This document shows, one piece after another, positions 7,153 through 21,575 of a stretch of 45,923 bases of DNA; within the stretch, counting starts at the first letter, position 1; each line of letters begins with the position of its first letter. The stretch covers positions 1 to 45,923 of the forward strand of contig JAAXKN010000035.1 of NCBI GenBank assembly GCA_025612375.1, read 5' to 3'. The notes below the pieces were generated by a model. That model made no database searches. It had not been told where the DNA came from and saw only the letters and a list, made by a program, of their open reading frames with translations. Origin of the DNA: Ignavibacteria bacterium. Its GTDB lineage: Bacteria; Bacteroidota; Ignavibacteria; Ignavibacteriales; SURF-24. The position numbers and the translations under genes were made by a program.

Positions 7153-7341
7153 CTCAACCTTCTTTTAAGCTTTAATATAATAACGCAAGGGCACACAACA
7201 CCCAAAATCCAAAGCGGAACTAATAGTTATAGTCAAAAAAAATACTTTAAAAATCAACAGAACGGCAAAATAATATAATTTATCCACTTTATGGTGTGAC
7301 CTGAGGCAGAAAATTTATTTATTTTTTATGCGCCGGACTAG
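7153..7341. other. Divergent intergenic region between cysE and DUF3857 gene 1
   Basis: About 190 bp of AT-rich sequence carrying the cysE promoter on the minus strand and leading into the plus-strand promoter-like leader at 7342-7373. No ORF and no strong hairpin was found. A TTATCCACT sequence at about 7280-7288 resembles a DnaA box but is single. Confidence 0.4.
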
Positions 7342-7373
7342 TTTGACAAAGGCTCGTAAAATCCTGATTTTTG
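7342..7373 (+). promoter_or_regulatory. Bacteroidetes-type promoter, leader copy 1
   Basis: TTTG at 7342-7345, a 20-bp spacer, then GATTTTTG at 7366-7373, matching the Bacteroidetes primary-sigma consensus TTTG-N19-21-TAnnTTTG with one mismatch in the -7 box. The same elements with the same spacing recur in front of the paralogue at 9457-9488. Transcription would start near 7380, about 20 nt before ATG 7400, so the in-frame ATG at 7328 would lie outside the mRNA. Confidence 0.6.
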
Positions 7374-7399: not shown

Positions 7400-9442
7400 A
7401 TGAAACTATTTTCCTTCTTTACTGTACTTTCCTTCTTACTTTGTGTTTCTTTAAGCAATTCTTTTGCCCAGATGGAGCCTCCGATGAAGTGGGGTGAAAT
7501 TCCGATGGCTGATCTTCAGATGAAATCTTTCCCGAAGGATACCAACGCTACGGCACTCATACTTGGTGACTACGGGGAATCTTTTTTTGACGATAATCTT
7601 AATATAGTATATAAAAGACACCTGAGGGTGAAGATACTTACTTCCAGAGGATATGAATGGGCTACTCACTCGGTTACATTGTTTACAGAAAAACGCACAG
7701 AATCGATAAGCGATATAGAAGGGGTGACTTACCGTCTTGATGAAAACGGGGATATAATAAGGAATAAGTTGAATGAGAGCGATATATTTAAGGAAGCATA
7801 TAACGATAAGTGGACGCGCTTCCGCTTTACTCTTCCTGCCTTGCAGCCGGGATGTATTATTGAGATGCGCTATACTGTTAAGACTACCAATCCTGTATTG
7901 ATGAGGGAATGGGTATTTCAGCATAATGAGCCGGTGCGCTGGAGTGAATACCGCGTCCGTTTTCCAAAGAGAATTGCTTACTCAGGTATTCTGCAGGGCT
8001 ATGAGAATTTTGCAGTAAAAGAACAGGAAGAAGTTACACAGGTATTCTCAGGCGCTGCGGAATCTTTTTTGGGTTCACCTATGCCAAAATGCTATCAGTG
8101 GCGCTGGGTTCTTAAGGATGCACCAGCCATCAGGAAGGAACCATTCATTACTACTACAGACGATTATGTGAATAAAGTAAAGCTGCAGCTTTCCGGTTAT
8201 GCCCGGCCTGAAGGTAATATAGAAAAAGTGCTCGAGGATTGGCCGGCGCTTGTAAAGGAACTGCTGGATCGTAAGGATTATTATGGCAGGATTGAAGAGA
8301 CGAGCGAAGTCGGAGATCTGGCAGAAAAGATTACCATGGGAATTAACGACCCGGAAGAAAAGTTAAAAGCCATATATAATTGGCTCCGCTCTTCGATTGT
8401 TTGGTCCGGTGAGGAGCGCGTTTTTCCTGAGCAGAATCCGGACGACCTTCTGGAATCTAAAAAGGGCAACAATGCCGACATTACTGTCCTGCTCCTGTCC
8501 CTACTGAAAAGTGCAGGAATAATGGGGGAACCGGTCATTTTAAGCACACGCGAAAATGGCAGGGTTTTGGACCTTTACCCGGTCATATCGCAATTTAACT
8601 ATGTGATCGCCAGGATAAATGTGGGCTCAAAATCTTTTCTTCTGGATGCAACTGACCCATACAGGCCAATGAGTCTGCTGCCCGAAAAGGTGCTTGATAC
8701 AAAGGGATTGGTTCTTAACGATGAAAACATCCAATGGATAGACATTCAATCCGGTACGACCAGTTTAAATACTTCGCTTGTAATGCTTACAGTCTCAGAA
8801 GACGGCTCAGTAGCCGGGAATTTTCAAAAGGTGATAACCGACTACAGTCTTTTGAATCTCCGTCAGGAACTAGGCGGGAAAAAAGAGGTTGAAGTTGCCC
8901 GCGAAAATTTTGAAACAGAGAGGCTGGGCATCTCTATTGATTCCGTCGCTTTCAGCTTTAAGGAAGAGCCGGTATTATCCGTGACAATTTCTTCAACTTT
9001 CTCATCAAATTCCTATGCTCAAAAAAACGGCTCAATAATCTATATAAACCCACAGGTAGCTGACCGCATCTGGCAAAATCCTTTTAAGTCTGAGATAAGA
9101 AGATACCCCGTTGATTACGGCTATAAAAGGAAAACTTCAACAACAGTAATTATAAAATTCCCCGAAGGCTATGAGCTTAAGGAAAAATTAAAAGACATTT
9201 CGATTTATGGAGGGAATAAGGACTTTTCATTTAAGCGCCTTTCAGAGATTCAGGGGAATACACTTTTTCTAAAGAGCAGCATTGGAATAAGTTCAACACA
9301 GATCGGTCCCGAATTTTACGAACAGCTAAGAACCTTCTATGAAAAAATAGTCTCGGCCGAGTCAGAGCAGATAGTTTTATCGCGCATTCCGGCTCAAACT
9401 GTAGATGCTGCTGCACCGGTCTCCGGCGGAAAAACACCATAA
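7400..9442 (+). CDS. Exported DUF3857/transglutaminase-fold protein, catalytic residues lost (paralogue 1)
   Basis: 680 residues from ATG 7400. A signal peptide (MKLFSFFTVLSF...NSFAQ) is followed by a DUF3857 beta-rich domain (about 40-290), a transglutaminase-like core (about 300-430) and a C-terminal beta domain. The ORF extends upstream to 7328, but that start would place 24 residues before the signal peptide and overlap the promoter. In the core, the usual G-D-C-K-D Cys is replaced by Asn (N358 in KKGNNAD) and the His of FNHV by Tyr (Y401 in FNYV); Asp (D416 in LLDATDP) remains. It therefore should not act as a Cys protease or transglutaminase. A close tandem paralogue follows at once. 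Role unknown; location periplasm or cell surface. Confidence 0.85.
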   Translation: MKLFSFFTVLSFLLCVSLSNSFAQMEPPMKWGEIPMADLQMKSFPKDTNATALILGDYGESFFDDNLNIVYKRHLRVKILTSRGYEWATHSVTLFTEKRTESISDIEGVTYRLDENGDIIRNKLNESDIFKEAYNDKWTRFRFTLPALQPGCIIEMRYTVKTTNPVLMREWVFQHNEPVRWSEYRVRFPKRIAYSGILQGYENFAVKEQEEVTQVFSGAAESFLGSPMPKCYQWRWVLKDAPAIRKEPFITTTDDYVNKVKLQLSGYARPEGNIEKVLEDWPALVKELLDRKDYYGRIEETSEVGDLAEKITMGINDPEEKLKAIYNWLRSSIVWSGEERVFPEQNPDDLLESKKGNNADITVLLLSLLKSAGIMGEPVILSTRENGRVLDLYPVISQFNYVIARINVGSKSFLLDATDPYRPMSLLPEKVLDTKGLVLNDENIQWIDIQSGTTSLNTSLVMLTVSEDGSVAGNFQKVITDYSLLNLRQELGGKKEVEVARENFETERLGISIDSVAFSFKEEPVLSVTISSTFSSNSYAQKNGSIIYINPQVADRIWQNPFKSEIRRYPVDYGYKRKTSTTVIIKFPEGYELKEKLKDISIYGGNKDFSFKRLSEIQGNTLFLKSSIGISSTQIGPEFYEQLRTFYEKIVSAESEQIVLSRIPAQTVDAAAPVSGGKTP

Positions 9443-9456
9443 AGAGGGATCTTCCG

Positions 9457-9488
9457 TTTGACAAAGGCGGATAAAATCCTGATTTTTG
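9457..9488 (+). promoter_or_regulatory. Bacteroidetes-type promoter, leader copy 2
   Basis: TTTG at 9457-9460, a 20-bp spacer, then GATTTTTG at 9481-9488. The sequence around it is nearly the same as in the leader of paralogue 1, and lies 15 nt after the stop of that gene. It predicts a separate transcript for paralogue 2 starting near 9495. Confidence 0.6.
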
Positions 9489-9514
9489 ACTTCACAAATA
9501 TTCAGGAGTCCTGC

Positions 9515-11623
9515 ATGAAACTGTTTTCCTTCTTTACTGTACTTTCCTTCTTTCTTTGTGTTTCTTTCAGTAATTCTTTTGCCCAGATGGAGCCGCCTGT
9601 TAAATGGGGTGAGATCCCCATGGCGGACCTTCAGATGAAATCTTTCCCAAAGGACACCAATGCTACAGCACTCATACTCTGTGACTACGGTGAATCTGCT
9701 TTCAATGACGAATTTAATATTATTTTCAAAAGACATCTGAGGGTTAAGATTCTTACGGCAAAAGGGTACGACTGGGGTACCCATTCAGTAACCCTATATA
9801 CTGAGCGCGCAACTGAACGGATACACGATATTGAAGGAATAACATACCGCCTGGATGAAAAAGGCGCCATTGTAAAGAATGAATTAAGCAGCAGCGATAT
9901 TTTTGAAGAAGAGGTCAGTGACGGCTGGACACGCTACCGCTTCACGCTTCCGGCATTGCAGCCGGGCTGCGTAATTGAACTCAGGTACAATATTATAACA
10001 ACAAGCATCGCCCGTATGCGCGACTGGATATTTCAGCACAGTGAGCCGGTACGCTGGAGCGAATACCGTATGCGCTACCCCAAGGCAATTGCTTATGCCG
10101 GCGTTACGCGTGGATTTGAATCTTTTGCCGTGGATGATAAAGAGGATGTTACACAGGTCTTCTCAGGAACCGCGTTAACTTATTTCAAACAGCCGGTAGT
10201 CAACTGCACTCAGTGGCGGATTGCCGTCAAGGATGCCCCGGCTATAAGGGAGGAGCCGTTTATTACTACAACTGAAGATTACCTCAGCAAGCTGGATATA
10301 CAGCTTGCAGGCTACGCCCTGCCCGATTTCGGCCAAAAAAGGGTACTTAACGACTGGCCCACGGTTGTTACAGAACTCCTGGACGACAAATACTTCTATA
10401 AAATTATAGACGACACGAGGCAGGTAAGAAAACTTTCAGAACAATTAACAGCCGGACTTCAGGCGCCTGAAGATAAAATGAAGGCAATTTATGACTGGGT
10501 CCGTTCCTCAATCGTCTGGTCGGGTGAGCACCGCGTCTTTGCCGGGCAGGAGGTTGACGATCTTCTGGAATCCAAGAAGGGGAACAGTGCCGATATAACA
10601 TTTTTACTTATATCCCTTCTGAAGACTGCCGGCATAGATGCAGATCCTGTAATTTTCAGCACACGCGGGAACGGCGCAATTCAGGATATTTATCCCATAA
10701 TTTCACAGTTTAATTACGTCACTGCCAGGGCAACCATAGGCACAAAGAATTATCTTCTGGATGCAACTGATCCTAACAGGCCTATGGACCTTCTGCCGGT
10801 AAAGATACTCGGGACAAGGGGGCTCCTCATAAGGGAGAAGAACTGGGGATGGGTTGGCGTTTCATCCGACAGGGTTGATGAGGGGAGTTCATCTGTCTCA
10901 ATTTTACTTTCAGAAGACGGTTCAGTTTCAGGAAAGCTTGAAAAGTCTCTTTCGGCATATTCCAGCCTCAAACTGCGCCAGGAGCTGAGTGAAAAAAAGG
11001 AAACTGAAATTGCAAAAAGCCAGTTCGACAGTGAAAGGTCGGGAATTACGCTGGACTCGGTTTTAATAGGCAATAAAGACAGCCTCGGCATGCCGCTGAA
11101 CATAAAGGCATCCTTTACTTCCGGTTCCTATGCCCAGAGAAACGGGGATATGATCTATCTGAATCCGCAGGTTATAGACCGCCTTTGGGAAAACCCCTTT
11201 AAGGCTCCGGTCAGGAAGTTTCCCGTGGATTACGCATACAAGAGAAAATATACAACAACAGTAACCATAAATATTCCTGAAGGCTTTGAAGTAAAAGAAC
11301 AGCTGAAAGACATGACAGCATACGGCGGGGCAAGGGCTCTTTCCTTTACGCGTCAGACAAAACTTGAAGGGAAGAAAATGACTGTCACATGCACAACTGA
11401 AATTAAGGAAGCACAGATTAAGCCGCTGTATTATGAACAGCTAAGAGATTTATATGCCACCATGGCCTCTGCCGGATCTGAACAGATAGTTTTATCGCGC
11501 ATACAGGAAAAAGTTCAGCCCGTTACAGCTCCCCTGGGCAATGGCGGCGGCACCACAGAAAAAACAGAACTGCCAGGAAAAACAGAGAAAACAAAATCAA
11601 AAGTAAAGAAGGGGAAAGCCTGA
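9515..11623 (+). CDS. Exported DUF3857/transglutaminase-fold protein, catalytic residues lost (paralogue 2)
   Basis: 702 residues from ATG 9515, which has AGGAG 7 nt upstream and begins the signal peptide; the in-frame TTG at 9458 lies in the promoter. Domain order equals paralogue 1. Core positions are S358 (KKGNSAD, normally Cys), Y401 (FNYV, normally His) and D416 (LLDATDP), numbered exactly as in paralogue 1, so both share the loss of Cys and His. The first 55 residues differ from paralogue 1 at only 3 or 4 positions, the rest much more. A Lys/Glu/Thr-rich tail of about 35 residues (from PLGNGGG to KKGKA) is unique to this copy. The stop is one nucleotide before the next ATG, suggesting translational coupling with the third family member. 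Confidence 0.86.
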   Translation: MKLFSFFTVLSFFLCVSFSNSFAQMEPPVKWGEIPMADLQMKSFPKDTNATALILCDYGESAFNDEFNIIFKRHLRVKILTAKGYDWGTHSVTLYTERATERIHDIEGITYRLDEKGAIVKNELSSSDIFEEEVSDGWTRYRFTLPALQPGCVIELRYNIITTSIARMRDWIFQHSEPVRWSEYRMRYPKAIAYAGVTRGFESFAVDDKEDVTQVFSGTALTYFKQPVVNCTQWRIAVKDAPAIREEPFITTTEDYLSKLDIQLAGYALPDFGQKRVLNDWPTVVTELLDDKYFYKIIDDTRQVRKLSEQLTAGLQAPEDKMKAIYDWVRSSIVWSGEHRVFAGQEVDDLLESKKGNSADITFLLISLLKTAGIDADPVIFSTRGNGAIQDIYPIISQFNYVTARATIGTKNYLLDATDPNRPMDLLPVKILGTRGLLIREKNWGWVGVSSDRVDEGSSSVSILLSEDGSVSGKLEKSLSAYSSLKLRQELSEKKETEIAKSQFDSERSGITLDSVLIGNKDSLGMPLNIKASFTSGSYAQRNGDMIYLNPQVIDRLWENPFKAPVRKFPVDYAYKRKYTTTVTINIPEGFEVKEQLKDMTAYGGARALSFTRQTKLEGKKMTVTCTTEIKEAQIKPLYYEQLRDLYATMASAGSEQIVLSRIQEKVQPVTAPLGNGGGTTEKTELPGKTEKTKSKVKKGKA

Positions 11624-13742: not shown

Positions 13743-14426
13743 ATGAAAAGCTTACTATTCGTTTTCATTGTACTTTCAATGACCTGTTTTGCACAGCTGG
13801 ATACTCTGGACAGGGTGGATCTGAAGAATAACCAGTCCTATACGGGAAAGGTAATAAAGGTTACCTCGAATACCGTCCAGTTCAGGGAATCTGTTTCAAA
13901 CCTTCTGCACGAGTTCAATAAAAGCGAAATTAAAGACATGAAGCTTTCAAACGGGGTGACTGTAACGTTTGACAATACTGCCCCCCTGGGGCAGCAGCAG
14001 AATGTAACCGGCAGTTCAAGAACAGAGACACAGACGCAGCTGCCGCAGAATACACAAACTCAAACACAGCCGCCGCAAAATACGCAGACGCAGAATCCAC
14101 CGGCACAGAATACACAAACACAGAATACCCAAACCCAGAATCCGCCATCGCAAAACCAGGCAGTAGGCAGCCAAAGGACACAAACGGGAACTACAACCGG
14201 GCAGACGGAGAACAAATCACAGACGGAGAATAAGGGGCAGACAGAGAATAAGGGGCAGACAGAGAATAAGGGGCAGACAGAGAATAAGGGACGGCAGTCG
14301 CAGACTACACAGAACGCCCCGGCGCCGGCTGACGACAGCGGTTCAAAAATGGATACTTCCATGATAATTGTGCTGGCTGCAGGAGGCCTTGTGGCACTGC
14401 TGTTAATTGGAGCGCTGATTTTCTAA
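13743..14426 (+). CDS. Exported protein with low-complexity Gln/Thr/Asn linker and C-terminal membrane segment
   Basis: 227 residues. A signal peptide (1-17) is followed by a small beta-rich domain (about 18-80, with DLKNNQSYTGKVIKVTSNTV, similar in style to the short 'LKNG..i.G.V' domains of secreted Bacteroidetes proteins), then a linker (about 85-200) of QTQPPQNTQTQ and repeated QTENKG units, and a hydrophobic segment MIIVLAAGGLVALLLIGALIF at the very C-terminus. The five QTENKG-type units are encoded by near-identical 18-bp repeats. The topology suggests anchoring in the inner membrane with the N-domain outside. GGAG lies 8-11 nt before the ATG (AAGGAGACTAAAATG). The long minus-strand frames over the linker are by-products of the repeat. 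Function unknown. Confidence 0.8.
   Translation: MKSLLFVFIVLSMTCFAQLDTLDRVDLKNNQSYTGKVIKVTSNTVQFRESVSNLLHEFNKSEIKDMKLSNGVTVTFDNTAPLGQQQNVTGSSRTETQTQLPQNTQTQTQPPQNTQTQNPPAQNTQTQNTQTQNPPSQNQAVGSQRTQTGTTTGQTENKSQTENKGQTENKGQTENKGQTENKGRQSQTTQNAPAPADDSGSKMDTSMIIVLAAGGLVALLLIGALIF
14202..14291 (+). repeat. Five tandem 18-bp repeats in the linker
   Basis: Five copies of CAGACAGAGAATAAGGGG-type units starting at 14202, 14220, 14238, 14256 and 14274. Copies 3 and 4 are identical; copy 1 is the most diverged and copies 2 and 5 differ by one base. The period is a multiple of three, so copy-number change keeps the frame. Confidence 0.95.
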
Positions 14427-16229: not shown

Positions 16230-16631
16230 TTGGCAAAGTTTGGTCTTTCTAAAGATGAAAGGATCAAAAAAGAAAAAGACTTTAGACAGGTATATTCGGT
16301 TGGTAAGGTTATTTATTCAGACGATCAGAAGCTGAAGGTTAGTTATTTTCCCGAAAAGAATTCTGAGCAGCCTGGTATTAAGATAGCTGCCGCTGTTTCA
16401 AAGAAAGCGGGCAATGCGGTTTGGAGAAACAGGGTTAAGCGTTTGTTAAGAGAATCCTACCGCTTTAACAAAGAAATTTTGACGGCAAATTGCATTGAAA
16501 AATCAATTTGCCTTAAAATTATTTTTTCTCCAAACAACTTGAATCAGAAAAGACAGAAGAAACTTAAGCTGGGTGATATTATGCCTGCTGTTATTGATTT
16601 GTTGAACAAAATAAACAGCCGACTGCAATGA
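16230..16631 (+). CDS. rnpA: Ribonuclease P protein component
   Basis: 133 residues. RnpA assists the RNase P RNA in removing tRNA 5' leaders. The central motif [21 protein letters not shown] is the basic helix signature (K-x-G-x-A-V-x-R-N-x-x-K-R-x-x-R), and the N-terminus has the [14 protein letters not shown] segment. The start is a TTG at 16230, five bases after the rpmH stop; no better ATG exists upstream in frame. The last four bases overlap the yidD start (ATGA), indicating coupled translation. The C-terminal half is diverged, as is common for RnpA. Confidence 0.95.
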
Positions 16632-16837
16632 GGCACTTATTTGTATTTTTAATCAGAATTTACCAAAAGCTGATATCACCGCTTTTTCCACCTTCATGCA
16701 GATTTTATCCCTCCTGTAGTGAGTATAGCCGCCAAGCTTTTTTGAAGTATGGAGTTCTTAAAGGAGGCATAAAATCTGTATGGCGGATCTTAAGATGTAA
16801 CCCCTTCAACAAAGGGGGGTATGACCCATTAGATTAA
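16628..16837 (+). CDS. yidD: Membrane protein insertion efficiency factor YidD
   Basis: 69 residues. The motif [20 protein letters not shown] followed by [10 protein letters not shown] and ending [12 protein letters not shown] is diagnostic of YidD, a small membrane-associated protein with conserved cysteines ([14 protein letters not shown]) that aids YidC-dependent insertion. It overlaps rnpA by 4 nt and lies 19 bp before yidC. Confidence 0.96.
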
Positions 16838-16856
16838 TTTCTGGAATATAAAACAG

Positions 16857-18728
16857 ATGGATAAACAAACAACAATTGCCTTCGTACTAATCGGAGCAAT
16901 ACTTATAGTATGGCTTTACCTGAGTTCCCCCACACCTCAAAACCCGCCTGTCAAAAAGCCGGGCGATACAACTCTGGTTAATAAGACCACGCCGCAGAAT
17001 GAAAACCAAAATCAGCAGAAGCCCCTTCAGGAGAATAAACCTTCCCAGGCGCAGAGTGACACTTCGGCTCTTGGAAAAGCACTCCAGGGCGCCAAGGCCC
17101 CGGAACAGATCGTTACAATTGAAAACGACCTTGTAAAACTGGAACTTACCAGTAACGGCGGCAGGATAAGAAGATACTTCCTTAAAAAATACAACACCTG
17201 GTATGCTGATCTTCCGCAGTATTCAAACGATTTTTATGAAAGACAGGTTCAGCTTGTTAATGACGACGGCGATTTTAATATAGTCTTCGTCTCAAAAGAC
17301 GGCAAGCTCGTCAATACTTCTGATGCCGCTTTTCAGTCAAGCGCCGAGAGGAGCTACTACCGTATATCAAACAACGACTCCATACTGGTAAGCTACACTC
17401 TTCCTGTCGGGAAAGGCCACATAAAGAAAACTTATGTTTTCCGCGCCAATGATTATGCCGCCCGCTGCGACATAGAGATGAAGAACATGGAGAACTTCAT
17501 CAGCAATTACAGGTATGACGTTGTCTGGGATAACGGCATTAACTTTGTCGAAAAGAATTCAGCCGATGAGGCCCGTTATTCAAATGCAAGCGCCTATGCC
17601 GGAGATGAGCAGGTAATTGTAAACGCCAAAATGGGCGAGAACGTACAGAAAGAATTTAACGGCAGGGTAGACTGGATTGACGTAAGAAACAAGTATTTCA
17701 CCGTCACCATAGCTCCTGTTAAGCCGAGCCCTGATGGCGGAGCGCTGATAAAAGGAACTGAAAAGGCCGTCGGGAACAATTCCGGCGTAAGGCAGTACTT
17801 CAGCACAAGCCTTAAGGTGCCTTTTAATAATTCCAGTTACCAGAAGAACTCATTCCTCCTCTATATCGGGCCCGTTGACTATTCGCTCCTTAAGTCTTAC
17901 GGAAAGAATTTTGAAAGGATAGTTGATTTTGGAAGCCTCTTCGGCCTCAAGTTTATTATCAGGCCGATTTCGGAATACCTGCTTCTGCCTTTGTTTGAGC
18001 TGCTGCACAGGTTCATACCGAACTACGGCTGGGTTATAATAGTGTTCTCTCTGATCATTAAAGTTCTTCTGCACCCGTTGACAAGAAGCAGCATGAAATC
18101 TATGAAAAAGATGCAGCTTCTGCAGCCCAAGATTGCAGAGATCAAAGAGAAATTCAAGGATGACCCGCAGAAGGTAAACAAGGAAACCATGAGGCTTTAT
18201 TCGACCTACGGCATCAATCCTGCCGGAGGATGCCTGCCGATGCTTCTGCAGATGCCTATACTTGTAGCGCTCTGGGGATTGTTCAACGTGGCAATTGAGC
18301 TCAGGCAGCAGCCGTTTGCCCTCTGGATACACAACCTTTCGGTGCCTGATGTTATTATGGATCTTGGCTTCAAGATTCCGCTTTTCGGCTTCAGCCAGAT
18401 AAGCGGCCTGGCTCTTCTGCTTGGAATTACAATGTTCATACAGCAGAAAATGAGCGTCAAGGATCCGACACAAAAGGCTCTTGTCTACATGATGCCAATT
18501 CTCTTTACGGTGATGTTCATGGGGTTCCCTGCAGGACTGAACCTTTACTATTTCATGTTCAACCTGTTCTCAATTGCACAGCAGTGGTATGTCAACCACA
18601 GCCACAGCAATGTTGAACTGGTTCCTGTAAAGACAAACAAAAAGCAGGGCGGAATGATGGCGCGCCTCATGGAAGCAGCCGAGAAAAGCGCTCAGCAGCA
18701 GCAGACAGCCAAAAAGAAGAAAAGATAG
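16857..18728 (+). CDS. yidC: Membrane protein insertase YidC
   Basis: 623 residues, the long Gram-negative form. An N-terminal membrane segment (residues 5-22) is followed by a Gln/Asn/Pro-rich linker, a large periplasmic beta-sandwich (about 80-340) and the conserved insertase core (about 360-590) containing GWVIIVFSLIIKVLLHPLT and the NPAGGCLPMLLQMPILVALW motif, with further hydrophobic helices to residue 590. The tail is basic (AKKKKR), which would contact ribosomes. It inserts membrane proteins alone or with SecYEG. The ATG at 16857 lies after yidD with no clear Shine-Dalgarno site. A terminator follows. Confidence 0.97.
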   Translation: MDKQTTIAFVLIGAILIVWLYLSSPTPQNPPVKKPGDTTLVNKTTPQNENQNQQKPLQENKPSQAQSDTSALGKALQGAKAPEQIVTIENDLVKLELTSNGGRIRRYFLKKYNTWYADLPQYSNDFYERQVQLVNDDGDFNIVFVSKDGKLVNTSDAAFQSSAERSYYRISNNDSILVSYTLPVGKGHIKKTYVFRANDYAARCDIEMKNMENFISNYRYDVVWDNGINFVEKNSADEARYSNASAYAGDEQVIVNAKMGENVQKEFNGRVDWIDVRNKYFTVTIAPVKPSPDGGALIKGTEKAVGNNSGVRQYFSTSLKVPFNNSSYQKNSFLLYIGPVDYSLLKSYGKNFERIVDFGSLFGLKFIIRPISEYLLLPLFELLHRFIPNYGWVIIVFSLIIKVLLHPLTRSSMKSMKKMQLLQPKIAEIKEKFKDDPQKVNKETMRLYSTYGINPAGGCLPMLLQMPILVALWGLFNVAIELRQQPFALWIHNLSVPDVIMDLGFKIPLFGFSQISGLALLLGITMFIQQKMSVKDPTQKALVYMMPILFTVMFMGFPAGLNLYYFMFNLFSIAQQWYVNHSHSNVELVPVKTNKKQGGMMARLMEAAEKSAQQQQTAKKKKR

Positions 18729-18739
18729 TTTTAATATTG

Positions 18740-18811
18740 CCGGTTTTCAGCTATATTTAGTTTCAGCCAAATTGAGCTTTAATTATACTTATAACTGAAA
18801 ACCGGTTTTTT
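18740..18811 (+). terminator. Terminator after yidC
   Basis: CCGGTTTTCAG (18740-18750) and CTGAAAACCGG (18795-18805) are perfect 11-bp complements separated by 44 nt, followed by TTTTTTG. It closes the rpmH-yidC transcript and lies immediately before the patatin gene. Confidence 0.7.
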
Positions 18812-18842
18812 GTTATATACAGGCCAAAATGAACAAGCTTAC

Positions 18843-21575
18843 ATGAATAAGCTACTAAAAAACAGATTCCGCCGCGGCATTCTCACAATTCTACTGCCAT
18901 TTATGATTGCTGGCACATCGCAGGCACAGCAAAAAGACGTTATTGCCCTTGAGTACAAAGAATCCCGTCTTCCGTTCGGCCTTAATGAAAAAGTTGTTGC
19001 CCAGCAGCCTTCGGTTGCCCTCGTCTTAAGCGGAGGCGGAGCGCGCGGCCTTGCACAGATAGGCGTTCTGCGCGCACTTTCCGAGCACGAAATACCGGTC
19101 AGCCTTATTGTCGGAACAAGCATGGGAAGCATCATAGGCGGACTGTATTCGGCAGGCTACAGCATTCAGGATCTCGACTCCATAGTCCGTGTAATTCCCT
19201 GGAGCGACCTTATGACCTCCACCGAAGAGACAAACAGAAAAGATTTATTTGTCGACCAGAAAGTTACAGAGGACAAGGCCCTGGTAGCCTTCCGCTTAGA
19301 AGGGCTTCACCTGGTGCTCCCGACCTCAATTACAACAGGGCAGCGTCTTTCAAATTTGCTGAACCTGCTGGCTTTGAATGCACCGATACACGTAAATTCA
19401 GATTTTGACGAGCTTAAGTATAGCTTCAGAGCCGTCTGCACCGATCTTGTTACAGGAAATCTTGTAATGCTTAACCATGGCTCCTTAAGCCAGGCCATGC
19501 GCGCAAGTTCCAGCGTTTCTCTTCTGGTTTCACCCGTAAAAATTGATTCTCTTCTTCTGGTCGATGGCGGACTTGTAGCCAACATACCGGTCCAGCTTGC
19601 AAAGGACTCGGGAAGCGACCTTACAATTGCATTTAACACCACAAGCCCACTTAATACGGCAAAGGAGCTGGATTACCCGTGGAATGTTGCAGACCAGCTG
19701 GTAAGCATCCCGATGCGCCTGCTTACAGAGCAGCAGCTTAAGGCGGCAGACATTGTAGTAAGCCCTAAAATCGGGAACAAAAAGAACACAGATTTTACAG
19801 GAATTGATTCTATTATATATAAGGGGTATGCTTCCACGCTGCCTTTAATCGGCACAATAGAAGAAAAGATAAAAGAGCTCTACAGAACAAAGCTTAAGGA
19901 AAAGGAATTTTACGTAAAAAATGTCGTTTATGACGAAAATGCGCCCCAGATACAGAGGGCCTTCCTTTACAAGTATTCCAGAAAGGACTCCGTCGGCAGC
20001 CATGAGATTTTAAGTGACCTGGCTTCAATCTACAGCTCGGGCGACTACGACAGCCTTTCGGTTGGCATCAGGCGCGATGAGGCCGGTTCGCACCTGAACT
20101 TCATCTTTAAGAAGAACCCGACCATTAATAAAGTAAGTGTCGGGGGGCTTACGCTCTTCAGCCGTTCTATTGTTGACAGCCTCTTTGATGAGGTTACAGG
20201 CAGGCCATATAATGCAAACAGGGTACTGGAAAAGCTTCTGAGCGTAATGAAGCTTTACAGAAGCTCCGGCTATTCGCTTGCCGAAGTAGAGCACGTTGCA
20301 TTCGACCCTGAGACAGGGGAGCTCAAAGTAAGAATATCTGAAGGGAAAATTGCCAGGATAGTAATTGAGGGAAACAGGAAGACAAGAGATGATATTATAA
20401 GAAGGGAATTTCCTCTTTCAGAAGGGGATTACTTCCTCTCCGGCAAAATTGAGCAGGGGCTTGCAAACCTGAGGGGGACGAACCTTTTTAGCGACGTTAC
20501 CATAACAGCCGCAAAAAATACTGAAGAAAACGTACTTTACCTGAAAGTTGATGAAAAGCCCTCAAGCCTCATGCGTTTCGGGCTCAGGATAGACAATGAG
20601 AACCAGACACAGCTGAGCCTGGACCTGCGCGATGAAAACATAGCAGGCTCGGGTACAGAGCTGGGCCTTATACTCTCGGGCGGCATAAGGAACAGGTCCT
20701 ATATTCTGGAACACAAGGCAAACAGGATTTTCAACAGTTATCTTACATATAAGGTACGCGCATTCTATGAGTTTAACGACGTTTATACCTACAAGATGGA
20801 TGAGGTCCGTTCGGAAAGATATTTCTCGCGCTCAGTTGACGGGGAATACCGGCAGATCAGCCAGGGATTTTCCCTGGGGCTTGGAATGCAGGTAAAAAAG
20901 TATGGCAATCTTATAATACAGGGGAAATACGAAGGTATTGAAGTAAAAAACAAAAGGGATTATAAGGGCGGCACCTATAAAACCCAGGTTTCCTCGGTTG
21001 AGGCATCTTCAACTATTGATTCGCAGGACAAATATCCTTTCCCGAATTACGGTTTTCTTATAAAAGCATCCTATGAAACGGCTCAGAAATTATTCTTTAG
21101 CGACCTGGGATATTCCAAGTTTTATATCGATTATACGAGTTATTTCACCACATATAACAAGGTGCACACTATAACTCCTCACTTTGCTTTTGGCTTTGCA
21201 GACGAGACACTCCCTTTAAGCCAGCAGTTTTCGCTTGGCGGGCAGAACTCATTTTTCGGCCTGAGAGATAACGAGTTCCGCGGAAGGCAGCTCTTCCTTG
21301 CGTCCATCCAGTACAGGGCAAAGCTTCCCGTCAAACTTTTCTTTGATGCTTACCTCAAGGTCAGGTATGATATGGGCAGCGTCTGGCAGTCCAGGGCACA
21401 GATGAGATTTGTGGATTTCATGCACGGAATGGGCACTTCTGTGTCTTTCGATACCCCTCTTGGTCCGGCGGACTTCTCCGTTGGAAGAAGTTTTCTTTTT
21501 GAAAGGAACCTGCCCAATAATCCGCTCAGGTTAGGGCCGGTATACTTTTATTTTACGATAGGGTATTACTACTAG
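18843..21575 (+). CDS. Patatin-like phospholipase fused to Omp85/BamA-type barrel
   Basis: 910 residues from ATG 18843; an in-frame TTG 33 nt upstream falls inside the yidC terminator and is not credible. A signal peptide (ending near SQAQ) is followed by a patatin domain (about 55-310) with GGGARG (oxyanion), the nucleophile S93 in GTSMG and D241 in VDGGL; then POTRA-like modules (about 365-540, with VIEGNRKTRDDIIRREFPLSEGD) and a C-terminal 16-strand-type barrel ending in aromatic FYFTIGYYY. This is the architecture of PlpD-type (type Vd) proteins: a lipase carried to the outer membrane by its own barrel. Bacteroidetes homologues often remain attached. Substrate unknown. Monocistronic. Confidence 0.9.
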   Translation: MNKLLKNRFRRGILTILLPFMIAGTSQAQQKDVIALEYKESRLPFGLNEKVVAQQPSVALVLSGGGARGLAQIGVLRALSEHEIPVSLIVGTSMGSIIGGLYSAGYSIQDLDSIVRVIPWSDLMTSTEETNRKDLFVDQKVTEDKALVAFRLEGLHLVLPTSITTGQRLSNLLNLLALNAPIHVNSDFDELKYSFRAVCTDLVTGNLVMLNHGSLSQAMRASSSVSLLVSPVKIDSLLLVDGGLVANIPVQLAKDSGSDLTIAFNTTSPLNTAKELDYPWNVADQLVSIPMRLLTEQQLKAADIVVSPKIGNKKNTDFTGIDSIIYKGYASTLPLIGTIEEKIKELYRTKLKEKEFYVKNVVYDENAPQIQRAFLYKYSRKDSVGSHEILSDLASIYSSGDYDSLSVGIRRDEAGSHLNFIFKKNPTINKVSVGGLTLFSRSIVDSLFDEVTGRPYNANRVLEKLLSVMKLYRSSGYSLAEVEHVAFDPETGELKVRISEGKIARIVIEGNRKTRDDIIRREFPLSEGDYFLSGKIEQGLANLRGTNLFSDVTITAAKNTEENVLYLKVDEKPSSLMRFGLRIDNENQTQLSLDLRDENIAGSGTELGLILSGGIRNRSYILEHKANRIFNSYLTYKVRAFYEFNDVYTYKMDEVRSERYFSRSVDGEYRQISQGFSLGLGMQVKKYGNLIIQGKYEGIEVKNKRDYKGGTYKTQVSSVEASSTIDSQDKYPFPNYGFLIKASYETAQKLFFSDLGYSKFYIDYTSYFTTYNKVHTITPHFAFGFADETLPLSQQFSLGGQNSFFGLRDNEFRGRQLFLASIQYRAKLPVKLFFDAYLKVRYDMGSVWQSRAQMRFVDFMHGMGTSVSFDTPLGPADFSVGRSFLFERNLPNNPLRLGPVYFYFTIGYYY

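Follow-up and report, generated by a model that had tools for sequence, protein, structure and literature searches.

Cys-less DUF3857/transglutaminase-fold proteins of an Ignavibacteria bacterium appear to belong to an old, maintained pairing with an intact-looking paralogue

Two tandem genes of an Ignavibacteria bacterium encode DUF3857/transglutaminase-fold proteins (p1 and p2) with replaced catalytic residues, directly upstream of a distant relative whose site looks intact (p3; Table 1), which raises the question of whether p1 and p2 are decaying genes, unusual enzymes or pseudoenzymes maintained with an active partner. The stretch analysed, hereafter the window, is 45,923 nucleotides long (contig JAAXKN010000035.1). 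The DUF3857 (PF12969) and Transglut_core (PF01841) domains score above their curated Pfam cut-offs in all three proteins, while DUF3858 (PF12970) matches p2 and p3 weakly, below its Pfam cut-off. The p1 and p2 proteins share 59% amino acid identity, while p3 shares only ~18% with p2. Counted from the ATG codons at 7400 and 9515, the Cys site in the alignment corresponds to N358 of p1 (GNNAD, 356-360) and S358 of p2 (GNSAD) and the His site to Y401 in both (FNY, 399-401), so that neither catalytic residue is present, while D416 is found in both within LDATDP; each residue lies where the earlier note had placed it. The p3 protein contains the motifs GDCKA (C333), FNHV (H376) and WLECTS, the latter with Glu391 as third residue. 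The triad of this superfamily is usually Cys-His-Asp/Glu (PMC4866520), and since Asp and Glu are both usual in third place, the p3 triad looks intact despite Glu391. The earlier description of p3 as an active relative thus stands for Cys333 and His376, but its third residue is not Asp.

Table 1. Features of the p1-p2-p3 locus, with positions in the window.
Feature	Position	Strand	Remark
Promoter-like element TTTG-N20-GAnnTTTG, upstream of p1	7342..7373	+	kept in sister genome
p1, putative exported DUF3857/transglutaminase-fold pseudoenzyme, 680 aa	7400..9442	+	N358/Y401/D416; class P in tree
KKGNN, one-time Cys motif of p1	8459..8473	+	N358 codon 8471-8473; alignment
Promoter-like element upstream of p2, duplicated along with the gene	9457..9488	+	
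p2, putative exported DUF3857/transglutaminase-fold pseudoenzyme, 702 aa	9515..11623	+	S358/Y401/D416
p3, putative exported partner with intact-looking site, 639 aa	11625..13544	+	C333/H376/E391

Homologues of p1 and p2 (class P) and of p3, their linked partner (class A), were gathered in two sets, 32 loci on named genome contigs and 395 genomes of the phylum, and residues were counted over the distinct sequences of both sets (116 P and 74 A proteins). Class P occurs in Ignavibacteria, Rhodothermia, Cytophagia, Bacteroidales, other Bacteroidota and Calditrichota, and DUF3857 is matched at an E-value of 0.001 in 25/25 P and 24/24 A proteins. Cys, His and Glu are present in all 74 A proteins, while Cys is absent from 115 of the 116 P proteins, which argues against chance as the cause of its loss in p1 and p2. 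In the 32-locus set, no P protein has the Cys, and the gene linked to it encodes GDCKxLxN or GDCKDLxT, the His and the Glu. The earlier note had both Cys and His lost; this holds for p1 and p2, but the His site of class P is occupied by Tyr in 60, His in 19 and other residues in the remaining proteins, so that the loss of His is uneven and applies to some lineages only. The Asp is retained in 113/116 P proteins, while the Gln302, Arg306, GxGG loop, Asp332 and Lys334 of class A are likewise gone. The single P protein with a Cys is encoded on the complement strand at position 6685 of L137 (G361), carries Phe in place of the His and comes from a tandem of three P genes next to one A gene.

A replacement Cys/His pair at a conserved active-site position, which would have pointed to an alternative alignment, was looked for in the P alignment, and no Cys or His column able to replace the triad is conserved among P proteins. 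Together with the residue counts for the 116 P proteins, this led us to reject misalignment as the cause of the apparent loss. P proteins could instead be enzymes with different or migrated residues, such as a Ser nucleophile, given that the Cys site is most often occupied by Ser (44/116) and that Ser-His-Asp occurs in nine of 67 P proteins, from one group of families. At this site, however, Ser exchanges freely with Val (18), Ala (13), Asn (8), Gly (8), Gln (8), Ile (7) and Thr (6), with Lys (2), Pro (1) and Cys (1) making up the remainder, and Gly-His-Asp (7) is nearly as frequent as Ser-His-Asp. On this free exchange, and with no conserved replacement column, the Ser-nucleophile reading was rejected as very improbable.

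A further possibility is that p1 and p2 are pseudogenes in decay, as broken extra P copies exist in relatives (L042 and L040). Both reading frames are intact, however, and their orthologues occupy the equivalent position in the sister genome L035 (an Ignavibacteria metagenome bin, JAAXKQ010000008.1), the closest named relative, which has the same three genes, gene order and flanking genes. Against this genome the NG86 dN/dS is 0.14 for p1, 0.08 for p2 and 0.10 for p3, values that are rough given a dS of 1.1-2.3, and YN00 yields 0.18 for p1. A Biopython maximum-likelihood estimate of 0.71 for p1 was treated as a failed fit, as its dS of 0.24 is implausible and NG86 and YN00 disagree with it. 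Seventeen residues, spread over all domains and including S382, G387 and F399 at the former active site, are invariant over 25 diverse P proteins, and p1 and p2 keep every one; the conserved part of the degenerate P cleft comprises S382, T383, R384, G387, F399 and N400. Decay was rejected on the intact frames, dN/dS and invariants, and its likelihood is practically nil. The conserved loss, for which the earlier note had proposed a check on purifying selection, thus coincides with dN/dS values in p1 and p2 as low as that of p3.

Structure prediction, also proposed there for the core, yielded AlphaFold2 models with a pLDDT of 81 for p2 and 91 for p3. Both match the solved structure 3kd4 best (p2: Z 18.6, rmsd 8.1 over 479 residues; p3: Z 26.2, rmsd 3.8 over 489 residues), followed by transglutaminases and peptide N-glycanases, which match in the core, indicating that P keeps the three-domain fold. 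The 3kd4 protein, BDI_1141 of Parabacteroides distasonis ('putative protease'), has the same three-domain build as the models and is likewise Cys-less, with YGTPLEI in place of the YGDCKAL of class A, while its class, P or A, is unclear by profile (36.0 versus 41.5 bits). A PDB sequence search with p2 alone as query and a search of the phylum with the 3kd4 core sequence both returned no match. Models, invariants and dN/dS thus concur that the catalytic residues have been lost while fold and gene are maintained, as is characteristic of pseudoenzymes.

The age of the loss was approached through a maximum-likelihood tree of 125 proteins, constructed with a short-search method without bootstrap and with the active-site columns removed. 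One branch (SH-aLRT 100) separates all 67 P proteins from the rest, and all 49 A proteins form a second group, also with a support of 100; other Cys-His-Asp DUF3857 proteins lie on the A side. Inside class P, p1 and p2 each group with their own orthologue in L035, which places their duplication close to genus level, while the tandem P genes of Cytophagales and others arose by independent duplications, some of them older. As read from the tree, P lost its Cys in the ancestry of the Bacteroidota/Ignavibacteria group, at an age comparable to that of the phylum, which leaves the p1/p2 duplication as the only recent event. The earlier suggestion, made from the shared Tyr, that the loss preceded the duplication is borne out by the tree and the 116 P proteins, with Tyr401 far older than the p1/p2 duplication and the Cys loss predating the diversification of the phylum.

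A second pair of DUF3857 genes is located on contig C50 of the genome to which the window belongs (L003/L004, about 16500-20600), where an active-looking Cys-His-Asp protein is followed by a distant, 677-aa Cys-less relative. The latter has Ala-Arg-Asp at the triad positions (KKGDATDIAY) and scores 76.9 bits with the P profile as opposed to 28.1 bits with the A profile. A similar pair is found in G048 and a comparable one, with Met-Tyr-Phe, in L019. The pair on C50 suggests that live/dead pairing may be older than class A.

The arrangement of the three genes differs at the two junctions. The stop codon of p2 (11621-11623) is separated from the p3 ATG by 1 nt, while a gap of 72 nt with a duplicated promoter-like leader lies between p1 and p2. 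The p2-p3 spacing fits the translational coupling postulated in the earlier note, while the gap and leader after p1 make it possible that p2 and p3 are expressed apart from it. The element upstream of p1 differs at one base from the Bacteroidota promoter consensus (TTTG/TAnnTTTG); the window contains only two promoter-like matches against 0.51 expected, and as at least two occur in 10 of 100 shuffles, this count is weak evidence alone. The start codons at 7400 and 9515 are preferred over in-frame codons farther upstream (ATG at 7328 and TTG at 9458), as the frame is not open there in the sister genome and the conserved promoter-like leader occupies this region. In L035 the two P genes share every base of their first 50 codons, and p1 and p2 have 88% DNA identity over this part, as against 70-74% between orthologues, which are more alike across most of the remainder. 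This higher likeness within than between genomes reflects gene conversion, separately in the window and in L035, which has homogenised the two P genes at their 5′ ends (7400-7550 and 9515-9665) and leaders. The converted part covers the signal peptide and also the promoter-like element that precedes each gene.

All three proteins begin with a signal-peptide-like stretch. Gln24 of p2 is located directly behind the hydrophobic stretch, and Gln occupies this position in 95% of P proteins, which fits the Q-rule of Bacteroidetes for exported proteins (PMC5837995). Directly after p3 (13743-14426) lies a gene for a small, exported-looking protein with Q/T-rich TENKGQ repeats, common only to the sister genome among the compared loci, and a Patatin-POTRA-Omp85 protein is encoded at 18810-21575, adjoining a yidC gene.

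Across the 395 genomes 96 A genes were found, and a P gene is adjacent on the same strand in every case (96/96). The listed P gene is directly beside its A gene, on the same strand, in 91 cases from 21 families; for the other five a P neighbour was found on inspection, with one cut by a contig end and three P genes present in G361. P precedes A in 58 of these cases (P-A) and follows it in 33 (A-P), suggesting that the linkage has outlasted rearrangement, while no further neighbours conserved over the phylum were found among the compared loci. The distance matrices of P and A are correlated (r = 0.876, with 0/2000 permutations as high), although such co-divergence is also expected from co-inheritance alone, and the correlation thus adds little. 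Homologous triplets that are unlinked and decaying, which would have spoken against the interpretation of p1 and p2 as two pseudoenzymes linked to an active relative, are not what the phylum presents: P-A linkage is kept and frames are open, and the comparative data support that interpretation. Judged from sequence, P and A represent an old, maintained partnership of a dead and a live paralogue rather than a product of decay.

The dependence is nonetheless one-sided. None of the 96 A genes lacks a P gene, while P genes without a nearby A gene occur at four of 52 testable loci (L037, L057, L066 and L083) and at 16 further inspected loci, all Cys-less and several in genomes without a listed A. 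Stand-alone Cys-less P genes are present at L117-L132, those of L118-L124 having Gln at the Cys site and lying between dihydroorotase-like and tsaB-like genes. By sequence reading the neighbours of stand-alone P genes look housekeeping (dihydroorotase-like, tsaB-like, pgk-like), and no functional hint was found among them at the inspected loci. As no A gene is within reach of these P genes, P must have some A-independent use, and it probably also acts alone.

This one-sidedness would fit P being an independent envelope binding or structural protein that A processes, cross-links or cleaves, the two forming an enzyme and its substrate rather than subunits. Erythrocyte protein 4.2 is a non-catalytic protein that could serve as a model. 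It retains the transglutaminase-superfamily fold, as P does, and is a fold match of the p2 and p3 models (PDB 7uzs), but it differs from P in being vertebrate and cytoskeletal, in having no operon partner and in its independent loss. A mere substrate, however, needs no conserved cleft, and in P it is the cleft and not the surface alone that is conserved; we regard this explanation as unlikely. P might also inhibit or safeguard A by masking it until it is required, which would account for A always being carried with P. Such a role, which would leave stand-alone P purposeless and requires fewer copies than the tandem P genes that are old in some lineages, appears improbable.

We favour, at a probability of roughly 0.55, the reading that P and A form an exported complex, to which P contributes as a non-catalytic subunit by binding substrate or activating A. 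In such an envelope system p1 and p2 would be the non-catalytic subunits and p3 the catalytic one, with P and A forming a complex at one to three P genes per A gene. The degenerate P cleft, in which S-T-R..G and F-N motifs are conserved, would hold a substrate or peptide and/or switch A on, and A, through its Cys-His-Glu site, would act as a cysteine peptidase or transamidase with an envelope protein or peptide as its target. The extra P copy at the p1/p2 locus may vary binding specificity or stoichiometry. Above all, a simple two-subunit model has to account for the finding of stand-alone P but no stand-alone A. A more far-reaching proposal, which we consider possible but doubtful, is a phylum-wide bipartite envelope cysteine enzyme, in which a Cys-His-Glu enzyme and one to three dead paralogues supplying the substrate site would form an obligatory complex and perform a new protein cross-linking or processing step of Bacteroidota.

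The nearest parallels are the AdoMetDC-prozyme and deoxyhypusine synthase pairs of trypanosomatids (PMC5201418, PMC3663545), in which a dead paralogue accompanies an active one; P and A are similarly kept together, by genetic linkage. Heteromer activation is proven for the trypanosomatid pairs but only inferred for P-A, the enzymes are unrelated, and the former are confined to one eukaryotic group whereas P-A spans a bacterial phylum. A literature search retrieved no publication describing the P-A pair, DUF3857 appeared in the literature searched only as a gene neighbour of lolA, and no relevant literature was found for DUF3858 or BDI_1141, with 3KD4 mentioned only as a fold match of vasohibins. 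A study of two tandem flavobacterial genes was dropped, as no transglutaminase or DUF terms were found in it.

The well-studied pairs of dead and live paralogues found in the literature are mostly eukaryotic, while P-A is kept by linkage across a bacterial phylum, and in culturable Bacteroidota it offers a direct test case for what pseudoenzymes do for their partners. DUF3857 is a family without an assigned function, the solved structure of which (3kd4) is itself Cys-less, and the pair suggests that many 'transglutaminase' and 'protease' annotations of Bacteroidota proteins are wrong.
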